This document shows, piece by piece, positions 3,001-48,425 of a DNA stretch of 64,000 bases (positions are counted from its first letter, which is position 1; the number at the start of each line of letters is the position of its first letter). Both the position numbers and the translations under genes were made by a program. The notes beneath the pieces were generated by a model that searched no databases, had not been told where the DNA came from, and saw only the letters and a list, made by a program, of their open reading frames with translations. The stretch comes from Rosistilla carotiformis (GTDB lineage Bacteria; Planctomycetota; Planctomycetia; Pirellulales; Pirellulaceae): NCBI RefSeq assembly GCF_007753095.1, contig NZ_CP036348.1, positions 3,472,001 through 3,536,000 on the forward strand. The letters are read 5' to 3'.

Positions 3001-3260
3001 TTCGGTTGGCGAAGGAGTCCGAAGTTGGGCACATCGAACTGAAGAACCGCTTGGAGAGTAAGTTCCATGATCGGGCTGAAGGCTTGACGGTTTGGACATC
3101 GATCGACGGCAAAGACTTCCAGAAAGTCTGGTCGGCGGACAAACCGCAAGCGGATTACAAGATCGATCTGCCCGCCGGCACCCGAGCGAAATACGTTCGC
3201 ATCGGCCTCGATGGCAAGGGGACTTTCCATCTGTTCCAAGGCGTAATCTACGGACGCTAA
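1..3260 (+). CDS. GDSL/membrane-bound dehydrogenase/c-type heme protein, 5' end cut by the window
   Basis: The reading frame is open from base 3, so the first ATG at 81 is not the true start and the N-terminus lies outside the window; 1085 residues are visible. The first ~85 residues resemble the end of an SGNH/GDSL hydrolase (NGVHLNEQGD). Then comes a beta-propeller of the PVC-type membrane-bound dehydrogenase kind with repeated DTDGDG/DTDGDD motifs and a conserved DPNRDHQHGRIFR stretch, then HEAT-like helices. A CSACH heme site lies at about bases 2394-2408, and a C-terminal region follows that resembles a discoidin-like carbohydrate-binding fold. Such proteins are secreted in planctomycetes and are thought to oxidise sugars or glycans, passing electrons to the bound heme; the substrate is unknown. 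A paralogue at 21245-26230 keeps the full N-terminus and carries a second heme and a PA14 domain. Family assignment is firm, activity is inference. Confidence 0.88.
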   Translation, partial: STGNPLQPDGVEENKNLAAYTAAIAKMAASDGHRFVDLHSRTSEAFAETAGNQFTINGVHLNEQGDRLMGELLDESLFDGEHPLGADASKFQEIRQWVNDKSWYHLQDYRMLNGWYVYGGRRTWDTETFPTEYRKIRNIVGVRDQYIWDLAAGRPVADQPDDSNTGEVYKPETMFGTRDENFRKMREPEEIKYPSPEESIEMMTVPEGFKVELFASEREFPELANPNQIAFDSRGRLWVSCMANYPQWQPGSAKPSDRLLIFEDTDGDGKADKCIPFYDKLICPTGFEFWNGGVLVVDEPRILFLKDTDGDDRADEVTPIIDGIATDDTHHTVGAWEFSHGGLLHMLEGVSLSTTLETPWGPFRNKGTSGGYIFDLHSLKFSHYRTPGYGNPWCLVFDKWGNGIVGDGTNAKQHWVSPLSGLEVNTRRTMDPVFDNQGMRPAVGNEFLWSRQFPDDVQGQFIYACVINMHGMPRFNVRDQADGAGFEGERVDDLLSSTDMVFRPVDPKIGPDGALWFGDWCNALIGHMQYSQRDPNRDHQHGRIFRLVYEPKPLLEPITQADKSIPELLDQLKTYELRTRYRVRREIRDRNKEDVYAAISQWIDGVEDPMQLCEAMWIQESFRDVDPSLLDRILATDEYRARAAAIHTITNEMERIPNAKDYLAKGVVDSNPRVRLEAVRGLSFLGTVEATELALKVVDQPMDYWIDYTLEHTLHALEPAWKSGEGNEGFLANSSEAATKHFTRFRNLNGPGGAAVLPLEVADDVDASLKARKDAIAKLSKLSGGNAGRGLEVFKRVCSACHMVGDVGKKFGPDLSDIGRRFSVEQIIASVIMPNEEISKGYETVMVLTFDGATHNGFILKEDDETLSLGVANGKQIDVLKDDIEIRKPMKASSMPEGLVKTIAPVEFLDLIAFLKNQQAIAYSKSDDGWIRSTDKNPPPMRTHGEFQEISRDAELQLGDAFDNRDWNSNAHLFLNPLKPSKWDFTFHSHHDSANPALTIRLAKESEVGHIELKNRLESKFHDRAEGLTVWTSIDGKDFQKVWSADKPQADYKIDLPAGTRAKYVRIGLDGKGTFHLFQGVIYGR

Positions 3261-44778: not shown

Positions 44779-45546
44779 CGGAAAGGCTGTGGAATTTTGT
44801 TACGGAATCGATAGTTCGCGAAACCGGCGCATCGCTATGGGGCCTCGCAACACGGGTACACATAGCAACTCTATGCCACGCAGCGAAACGAAGCCGAGAA
44901 TTTCTTTGTTGTATTTCCGCAACATCCCCCCCCCAACACTGAACTATGCCGCCACCATCATGTGTTGGATGGGCATGGCGGACAGCCATAAACAAGGCGA
45001 TGTCGCGTCGTCGTTCGCTTGGAAAGATGGCTCCCACTCAACGAGCCCCCATGAAGTTCACGACGCACTCCGTTGCGTTGCTAACGGAGTCAACCCTTGC
45101 AACTTGCCCCAACCGAGCGCGATGGCGAAAAACGCTACCGAGAAAACAGAAACTGCTTTACGGCAGAGAATCAAGACAGCCTGATAGGGCTGAGAGCGGC
45201 AGTACCGATGGGGCGGTCCAACAGTAAGTCAACAGCAAACTTAGCCAACGGCGAACGTTCTACGGCCTCTACTTGACCTGAATCGATCCCATCGGACTTG
45301 AAAGAGAACTAATGAGACAAGCATCAACTTTTCGACGAGCCAGTGGTGGTCAGAATTTTTGCCAATGCGGCTTTCTTGCAAATCACCTGCGTGCCCAACA
45401 CAAAATCCGGACTTAGATCTCCTGCGCATGCAGAAGCTATGCCTGCCCCAAAAACACCCCACCTGGTTGACTTTAAACCGACTAGGTGTAGAGTAGCCAG
45501 TTGAATGCCATCCCAGTTGCTTTGGTCGTGCATGTTTCACCAAAGT
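44779..45546. other. 768 bp without a supported gene
   Basis: Between the Tad-like operon start and the tandem repeat array. Frames of up to about 105 codons occur on both strands but have no ribosome sites, no family features and irregular composition; composition looks less GC-rich than surrounding genes. It may be remnant sequence of a lost gene. The start of the Tad-like transcript should lie in its left part. Confidence 0.5.
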
Positions 45547-45706
45547 GATTCCCACCAAATTGAATTGATTCTCAGCGATTTAGGTCGATTCCCGCTGACT
45601 TGAATCGATTCCCGCTGACTTGAATCGATTCCCGCTGACTTGAATCGATTCCCGCTGACTTGAATCGATTCCCGCTGACTTGAATCGATTCCTACCGGCT
45701 TAATTC
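45547..45706. repeat. 20 bp tandem repeat array with palindromic junctions
   Basis: Eight 20-base units run from 45547 to 45706. Five are identical, GATTCCCGCTGACTTGAATC (45587-45686); two before and one after are degenerate. At each junction of intact units the sequence GAATCGATTC forms a perfect 10-base palindrome, so these palindromes repeat every 20 bases, close to two helical turns. The array ends 22 bases before the DUF1559 start codon, so it lies across the promoter or leader of that gene. It is not CRISPR-like (no spacers). Confidence 0.95.
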
Positions 45707-45728
45707 TCACCAAACCAGGCGCAGTAGA

Positions 45729-46694
45729 ATGAATTTTGTAAACGTTTCCGGCAAGCGTCGAACGCTTGTACGCGGTTTCACCTTAGTGGAACTGTTAGTT
45801 GTGATCGCGATTATCGGAATTCTGGTCGGTTTGTTGCTTCCGGCGGTTCAAGCGGCTCGCGAGGCGGCGCGACGGATGCAGTGCAGCAACAACCTCAAGC
45901 AAATGGGGCTTGCGCTGCACAATTACCACGATACCTATCGATGCTTTCCAGCAGGTTACATATATCGGGGTACCGCCTTCAACAATCAGCCAGAATGGGG
46001 CTGGGGCGTGGCGATCTTACCGTTTGTTGAACAGCAACCGTTGTATGATGCATTGCAGTCCACAACACGCACACTAAATCAAGTTCTCAACGCAGCGTCC
46101 ACCGATCCAAGTCCTGAACGGACGCTTGTGCAGACGACGTTGGACTTCTACCGCTGCCCGTCCGACACCGGTCCGGATATTGCAGATAGCGAAATGCCGA
46201 ATTTTGGCACTTTTACCAACCCGCGTGTGGCGCTTTCTAATTATGTAGGAAATGCCGGTTGGCAAGATCAGCCTGCCCGGGCGGATAAGGTCCGAGGTAT
46301 GTTTTTTGGAAACAGTTTTCTCAAGTTCGCGCATGTACTGGATGGCAGTTCGAACACGATCTTTGTTTCGGAACGTGACTACAGAAGGACCCACGCGGCA
46401 TCCTGGCTGGGGATTGGGAACAATAACTTGGGCGCGTCGAACCACGCTACATTGAAGGCATTGTTTCGCGGCTACTTCAACATCAATTACGATTACGCGA
46501 CCTTGAATAGCGGCAACACGGGCAAGGGCTGGGGGAGCCTTCATCCCGGCGGCCTACAAGTGTTGATGGTCGATGCTTCGACCCACTTTCTATCGGAAAC
46601 GGTCGAGCGTGAGTCGTCAATCGCTGGACAAATCGGTGTTTTGAACGCAATGCTCTGGCGAGACGACGGGCAGCCCTTCAAATCGCCATTCTAG
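45729..46694 (+). CDS. DUF1559 prepilin-like protein
   Basis: 321 residues: basic leader, [29 protein letters not shown], then a DUF1559 body and C-terminal [21 protein letters not shown], where the usual ADGS reads VDAS. The last ~30 residues are unusual for the family. It begins directly behind the 20 bp repeat array and ends 29 bases before a strong terminator. A lipoprotein gene follows that was cut by an insertion element. Probably exported and surface exposed; function unknown. Confidence 0.92.
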
Positions 46695-46765: not shown

Positions 46766-47154
46766 ATTCATCATTCCCCTTCCCTATTGATATACAAATG
46801 ATAAAATCAACTGTTCTTCCGCTGACGTTTTTGCTGGCATGCGCTCTCATTGCAGGCTGTAACTCAGGTGTTGAACTCGCCACGGTCACAGGAACCGTCA
46901 TGCTAGACGGCCAACCTGCGGAAGGGTTGGAAATTGAGTTCGCCCCAACAAATCCTGGCGTTACCTCAGTCGGCCTCGGTTTCACTCAAGCCGATGGTTC
47001 GTATTCACTTCACTACCCCGGGGACGACAATGCCGGCGCACCTCCGGGCGACTACGTTGTTCGGATTCGCGGTGCAGAACGCGATGATGCTCCGATGTTG
47101 AAAGTCGTCGACAACTATAACACCAAGTCTGAATTGACAGCCACTGTAGAACGA

Positions 47155-47164
47155 GGCGCCAATA
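47155..47164. repeat. Left 10 bp target duplication GGCGCCAATA
   Basis: Identical to bases 48426-48435 on the other side of the element. The perfect copy means insertion was recent or is under little drift. Ten bases is within the 8-10 bp range known for ISAs1-family elements. Confidence 0.95.
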
Positions 47165-48425
47165 CAGGGCAATCGTACGTCGATTTTGTTTTTGGTCTAA
47201 GTATTGCGTGGAGGTTGGCTGAGTCAAGTTGCTTCGACGAGAAGCTTTGTTGTTCCTGCACGGAGGTGTTTATCGATGACTGGGCCAGCTGCAATTGTTT
47301 CAAAATGTTTTGAAAACATTACCGATCCGCGCGTTGATCGTGGCCACAACTATGATCTCGTGGAAATGATCTTCATCACGCTGACCGCTGCGGTCTGCGG
47401 TGCGAACGGCTGGGTTGATGTGGAGCGCTTCGCCAAGGCAAAAATCGATTGGTTTCGACGTTATGTCAAACTCGACAATGGAATCCCTAGTCACGACACC
47501 CTTGGCCGCGTCTTCTCGAACCTCGACACCGGAGAGTTTCTCACAGCGATGCATCAATGGGTCGATCATTTTGCCAGTTCGCTGCGAGACAAAGGTGTTG
47601 CCATCGACGGGAAGGTCTTGCGTGGCTCATTTGATCACGCTGCGGGCAAGAGCCCACTACATACCATTACCGCCTTTGCCACCGAGACAAAGCTGGTGCT
47701 CCGACAAATGCCTGTCGACGATAAAAGCAACGAAATTCCTGCCGTTCCCCAGTTGCTCGAACTGCTTGACCTTGCTGGATCCGTGGTCACGCTCGACGCG
47801 ATGCATTGCCAGAAAGAGACCGCCAAACGGATTGTCGCCGCAGAGGCAGATTACATTCTGACGGTCAAAGGTAACCAAGGGAATCTTGCGAATCGATTGT
47901 CAGAACTGTTCCTTGAGTATGGTGAACAGCGATACCGTGTCGAAGGATTACGCAAGCATGTAACGGTGGAAACATCGCGTGGTCGCGACGAGCGCCGTGA
48001 GTACTACACAATCGCCGTTCCAGGCGAACCGCTCTTTGCTGACTGGGCCGGTATCAAATCGATTGGAATGATCTTCCGCGTCCGTGACGATGGCAATGTG
48101 AGGCATTCCGAGGCGACGTACTTCATTAGCAGCCTGCCGCCCAAGGTGAAAAAGCTGAGCCGGCGGATTCGCGATCACTGGAAGATTGAGAACAGCGAAC
48201 ACTACATTTTGGATGTAACTTTTTCCGAAGACGCCAGTCGAATTCGCGCGGGCAGTTCACCAGAAATCTCCGCTGCATTTCGCCGAATGGCGTTGAATAT
48301 TTTGCAGCAGGACACAACCGTGAAAGACTCGATTCGCGGCAAACGACTCCGTGCGGGCTGGGACGAAACCGTTCTTGATGCCATTTATGCCGGTTTCAAC
48401 AGGGCTTGAACGTGCGATTGCCCTG
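47165..48425 (+). mobile_element. Complete ISAs1-family insertion sequence
   Basis: The element is 1261 bp, with inverted ends CAGGGCAATCGTACGT (47165-47180) and ACGTGCGATTGCCCTG (48410-48425). These pair over 16 bases with one mismatch. It carries one transposase gene and is flanked by a perfect 10 bp direct duplication. The transposase stop codon abuts the right end. It inserted near the 3' end of a lipoprotein gene, in the same orientation. All features expected of an active copy are present. Confidence 0.95.
47276..48409 (+). CDS. ISAs1-family transposase
   Basis: From the ATG at 47276, which has GGAGG ten bases before it, 377 residues, the normal ISAs1 length. DDE-type catalytic residues lie in VAIDGKVLRGS, VVTLDAMHCQKE and the later RDHWKIENSEHYILDVTFSED region with the YILTVKGNQ strand. 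It catalyses cut and paste or copy of the element using the inverted ends. The gene is intact, so the copy may move. Lipoprotein-gene transcription reads into it in the same direction, which may supply expression. Confidence 0.96.
   Translation: MTGPAAIVSKCFENITDPRVDRGHNYDLVEMIFITLTAAVCGANGWVDVERFAKAKIDWFRRYVKLDNGIPSHDTLGRVFSNLDTGEFLTAMHQWVDHFASSLRDKGVAIDGKVLRGSFDHAAGKSPLHTITAFATETKLVLRQMPVDDKSNEIPAVPQLLELLDLAGSVVTLDAMHCQKETAKRIVAAEADYILTVKGNQGNLANRLSELFLEYGEQRYRVEGLRKHVTVETSRGRDERREYYTIAVPGEPLFADWAGIKSIGMIFRVRDDGNVRHSEATYFISSLPPKVKKLSRRIRDHWKIENSEHYILDVTFSEDASRIRAGSSPEISAAFRRMALNILQQDTTVKDSIRGKRLRAGWDETVLDAIYAGFNRA

Follow-up and report, generated by a model that had tools for sequence, protein, structure and literature searches.

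A 20-bp tandem array of Rosistilla carotiformis is probably a lineage-specific minisatellite in the 5' leader of a DUF1559 gene

In the marine planctomycete Rosistilla carotiformis, eight 20-bp units stand in tandem on the + strand (45547-45706) ahead of a gene for a DUF1559 protein; all positions refer to the window, which is the whole 64,000-nucleotide stretch of DNA analysed (contig NZ_CP036348.1, positions 3,472,001 to 3,536,000). We propose that the array is probably a lineage-specific minisatellite in the 5' leader of this pseudopilin-like gene, downstream of a conserved, predicted sigma-70-type promoter.

The units begin at 45547, 45567, 45587, 45607, 45627, 45647, 45667 and 45687. Units 3 to 7 (GATTCCCGCTGACTTGAATC; 45587-45686) are identical and, together with unit 8, form five GAATCGATTC palindromes, which start at 45602, 45622, 45642, 45662 and 45682. 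The outer units are degenerate: the first two (45547-45586), of which the first reads GATTCCCACCAAATTGAATT, match units 3 to 7 at 15 and 12 of 20 positions, respectively, and the eighth (45687-45706) at 14 of 20. TRF places the array at 45585-45692 with a period of 20, 5.4 copies, 100% matches and a score of 216, whereas 20 Markov-shuffled versions of the window score 58 at best. Unit count and TRF thus bear out the preliminary description, which had reported eight units, five of them identical, ending 22 bases before the start codon; the gap between the array end at 45706 and the ATG at 45729 is indeed 22 bp. The search for further arrays that it had suggested yields no second one, as a scan of the 7.44-Mb genome allowing up to 3 mismatches finds the unit in six places, which are the five perfect units of the array and one singleton with 3 mismatches. 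Compared with 40 genomes, its own included, the array DNA has itself as the sole good match, all other matches having E values of at least 0.041. Prokaryotic satellites are described, in the passages seen of a general survey, as at least four head-to-tail units of 10-200 nt (PMC6749651), and the array, with its regular tandem units, falls within this definition; it is of a tandem type whose copy number could change. Rhodopirellula baltica is found in a table of that survey with the number 29, which we take to be its number of satellites, and neither the present locus nor its genus is dealt with in those passages (PMC6749651).

The gene downstream of the array (45729-46694, + strand) encodes a protein of 321 aa with Pfam matches to DUF1559 (PF07596) and to the N-terminal methylation motif (PF07963). 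It is one of about 100 DUF1559 genes in the genome of R. carotiformis (104 match rows, some of which are pieces of one gene). Upstream of it, two TadE-like genes and a gene with a VWA domain are found on the other strand, and downstream lies a small gene (46798-47313, + strand) whose product looks lipoprotein-like by eye and has no Pfam match. The 3' end of this small gene is altered by an insertion sequence (47166-48425) with a DDE_Tnp_1 transposase (47204-48409), which sits in its last codons; the sister species lacks the insert at this site, where the flanks share an overlap of 11 bp, as expected of a target duplication. Among the 241 genomes searched in the family, nine, including that of the window, contain a match to the DUF1559 gene at E <= 1e-85, and these nine matches are treated as presumed orthologs by similarity alone. 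The gene of the sister species, hereafter referred to by its genome handle G002, is 89.4% identical at the DNA level, and the presumed orthologs outside the genus show 52-57% identity. R. oblonga (G001) has no match to the gene at E <= 1e-85, its best match being 49% identical; for the VWA neighbour, the closest match in R. oblonga shows 33% identity. Scans of contigs with the DUF1559 gene and its VWA neighbour give no confirmed relatives in a dataset from which records of near relatives were possibly excluded. According to the parts seen of two earlier studies, DUF1559 proteins are the biggest paralog group (68) of Planctopirus limnophila (PMC10632474), and 9 of the 74 DUF1559 genes of Rhodopirellula baltica show a rise within the first hour under cold and salt shock (PMC2754498). 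No description of the control of single DUF1559 members was found in the literature examined, and no report on this locus was found among the matches listed in a search of titles and abstract openings of open-licence papers.

The placement of the array in a leader comes from a promoter-like site upstream of it. A sigma-70-like scan of 44780-45740 finds one site, TTGACT-16-TAGAGT (45467-45494, + strand), which is the predicted core promoter for the DUF1559 gene; because shuffles give 0.9 such sites, this one is weak on its own evidence. The same kind of scan in G002 performs better than chance, with 1 site found against 0.1 expected. The pattern TTGACN-N16/17-TANNNT, whose TANNNT form was picked post hoc after viewing the sequences, is found upstream of seven of the nine presumed orthologs (the window and six of the eight others), and its background frequency is 0.0106 per kb per strand over 1.6 Mb. 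In the five genomes with the site and without an array, the distance from the -35 element to the ATG is 94, 92, 82, 89 and 95 bp, as compared with 262 bp in the window and 137 bp in G002; when the arrays are subtracted (160 bp in the window by unit count and 49 bp in G002 by TRF), the latter two become 102 and 88 bp. The remaining two, L199 and L009, have loose promoter matches alone, at 99 and 59 bp, respectively. Under a stricter 9-of-12 scan, the site is found at the expected place in three of the nine (the window, G002 and L197), and L195 and L009 give other sites instead. Local alignment of the upstream regions of the window and G002 does not single out the promoter, as the best score is reached by 56% of the shuffles. 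Among 114 upstream regions of DUF1559 genes, each 300 bp long, the pattern occurs in seven, that of the window included, and TTGAC is found 78-100 bp before the ATG in six. With a start assumed about 6-7 nt past the -10 element, the transcribed 5' leader of the window would be about 228 nt long (45501-45728, + strand). Because the shared site lies upstream of the array and the leader is lengthened by approximately the length of the array in two species, the array is probably located in the transcribed 5' leader and not in the promoter. The preliminary description had spoken of a promoter/leader position; its leader part is retained, and its promoter part is not.

In G002, an array is found at the same position in the leader, and it consists of a different unit of 18 bp, repeated 2.7 times with 93% matches (TRF). 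Its longest perfect palindrome is 2 bp, and GAATCGATTC is absent. The first unit of the window array resembles the G002 unit better than do all 5000 shuffles (0/5000 as good); for the perfect units the corresponding value is a modest 0.009, and neither the eighth unit (0.058) nor the second (0.44) reaches significance. The homogenised units of both species align best as GAATCGATTCCC with GAAACGCTTCCC, so that their likest stretch is the palindrome region plus CCC; this likeness could hint at constraint on that stretch. The intergenic region of the two species is for the most part alignable only with many gaps, unlike the gene itself. TRF detects no comparable upstream array in the seven other presumed orthologs; the upstream region of one of them, L198, has TTTTC x 3 near the start. 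Since the two arrays are co-located, their units differ and the first unit of the window resembles the unit of G002, one old leader repeat of the species pair seems to have expanded anew in the two lineages, from different unit variants. Given that the sister species carries another repeat in this place, the window array looks like a fast-changing leader repeat rather than a series of binding sites for a regulatory protein.

No comparable array is found upstream of the other DUF1559 genes examined. The 114 upstream regions, of which 85 come from R. carotiformis (G000; 80 tiles plus the window) and 29 from G002 (from 30 loci of 109 match rows, the presumed ortholog of G002 not being among them), were collected by a pilin-motif search with heuristic start codons, which may have misplaced some starts and overlooked some genes. 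An array with units of at least 10 bp and more than 2.5 copies is found in one of the 114, that of the window. One other region of the set has a perfect 16-bp repeat of 2.1 copies ahead of another DUF1559 gene (L107 of G002, 1218-1250), and a perfect 13-bp array of 7.5 copies, GCTGATTCGCATC, is found downstream of a DUF1559 gene in L102 of G002 (3014-3111). In the genome at large, array expansion is ordinary for R. carotiformis, as other near-perfect arrays of short units occur in it; TRF reports 75 rows with scores of at least 60 on 1.664 Mb, overlapping rows being counted. When twelve arrays (eleven of R. carotiformis, including that of the window, and one of G002) are compared with a crude ORF listing, some are found inside open frames, and the array of L182 has no frame in that listing. 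A dispersed minisatellite family of 14-15 bp, GGCAGRATGATG, is found in G000:C1 at 817177-817493, 4058869-4058894, 6394009-6394095, 6396434-6396550, 6803077-6803350 and 7210440-7210535, with two of its arrays lying between convergent frames by the crude ORF listing. In L115, L122, L138, L150 and L172 of G000, longer units of about 180-195 bp recur in tandem, with about 3-4 copies at each place and CTTCACCCTCCC-like ends.

The regular palindromes invite another explanation, in which a dimeric DNA-binding protein controls the gene by binding to the GAATCGATTC palindromes, possibly acting as a roadblock beyond the promoter. In its favour stand the five perfect palindromes: just 2.2% of random 20-bp units contain a palindrome of at least 10 bp, and of the 41 TRF rows with a period of 10-60 and at least 2.5 copies, the 40 others have none longer than 8 bp. 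In addition, the palindrome region is where the homogenised units of window and G002 are most alike. The geometry, however, argues against this explanation. The preliminary description had placed the palindromes on one helix face, but with 10.5 bp to a turn, a spacing of 20 bp falls about 34 degrees short of two full turns, and successive sites lie at 0, 326, 291, 257, 223 and 189 degrees, which adds up to a drift of about half a turn from one end of the array to the other. A helically phased array of operators would have conserved spacing in whole turns, and because the period is 20 bp in the window and 18 bp in G002, the helical phase is not conserved. The suggested alignment of dimeric proteins along the array finds no support either, as the promoter-like site shared by the presumed orthologs is upstream of the array, the phase of the array drifts and the G002 unit has no perfect palindrome longer than 2 bp. 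Nor is there a sign of GAATCGATTC as the site of a regulon in the 1.6 Mb examined (80 tiles of the 7.44-Mb genome): it occurs elsewhere as 13 single copies, 11 in long open frames and 2 outside them, as compared with a mean of 9.75 for 16 ATCGAT-centred palindromes and of 1.5 for all 320 palindromes of the same G+C. On geometric and comparative grounds, a one-face operator array is unlikely, and we give control through these palindromes in any form only a slim chance. Much less probable still is that the array is a methylation-sensitive cluster of GANTC sites modified by a putative CcrM-like methyltransferase. This weak idea draws on the 13 GANTC sites in the 160-bp array and on five matches to N6_N4_Mtase in the genome, but the leader of G002 has just 2 such sites, and GANTC is not depleted but above expectation in 1.6 Mb (4.9 versus 3.7 per kb).

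At the RNA level, the units could form a row of hairpins with GAUUC/GAAUC stems that control mRNA stability or translation. The predicted fold of the window leader is more stable than those of its shuffles (-64.4 versus -53.1 kcal/mol; z -2.46, 2/200 as good), and in the fold model each extra unit adds about 6-8 kcal/mol and the accessibility of the Shine-Dalgarno stretch rises from 0.47 at 1-2 copies to 0.53 at 3 and about 0.62 from 4 copies on. Against such an element, the G002 leader folds no better than chance (z -0.64, 54/200), a search of the window against Rfam gives no match at the gathering cut-off and hence no known leader RNA, and the modelled mean accessibility from -20 to +10 of the start codon, which is 0.43 without units, stays at 0.62-0.63 for 1 to 10 copies. 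We therefore regard a dedicated RNA element as unlikely, if less so than an operator array. The same model bears on the earlier proposal that repeat number acts as an expression switch: since the accessibility of the start codon is flat over 1-10 copies and that of the Shine-Dalgarno stretch moves from 0.47 to 0.62, an on/off switch by copy number is not predicted, and a mild graded effect at most is possible.

The closest analogue found is the tract of 7-bp repeats of hmw1A in Haemophilus influenzae, which likewise stands ahead of a surface-protein gene; according to the parts of that study seen, the number of repeats affects the length of the 5' UTR, and a higher number lowered expression, from a cause left open (PMC8262952). 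Its variation was measured, with 20-24 repeats in one passage of the text, whereas the array described here has 20-bp units in 5-8 copies, is known from one genome of an environmental species and precedes a gene of another protein family. The TAACTGA direct repeats of marine Beggiatoaceae, seen in part as well, are also short tandem repeats close before start codons, mostly a few nt upstream, with a proposed post-transcriptional role (PMC4679880); they differ in that one heptamer occurs in 169 sets genome-wide, as opposed to one array at one gene in R. carotiformis. The locus might be a planctomycete contingency locus, in which the expression of one pseudopilin-like gene among about a hundred paralogs is adjusted by the length of a mutable leader repeat that is re-expanded lineage by lineage, a surface protein thus being tuned; we consider this a speculative extension that is doubtful at present.

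Under the preferred explanation, a minisatellite in the leader, the array would have grown out of a short repeat in the ancestral leader through replication slippage or unequal recombination, and its centre would have been homogenised while its edges were left degenerate. The array would be transcribed, and a change in copy number would alter the leader in hairpin-forming steps of 20 nt. The effect would be at most a gradual tuning of mRNA level, mRNA stability or translation, as neither an on/off switch nor an operator array is envisaged, and the array may be nearly neutral. A neutral array would still be a possible strain marker, and a caution against taking palindromic repeats for operators. 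The turnover of this leader array between two species with 89% identical genes provides a natural test of whether such genes are tuned by leader length.
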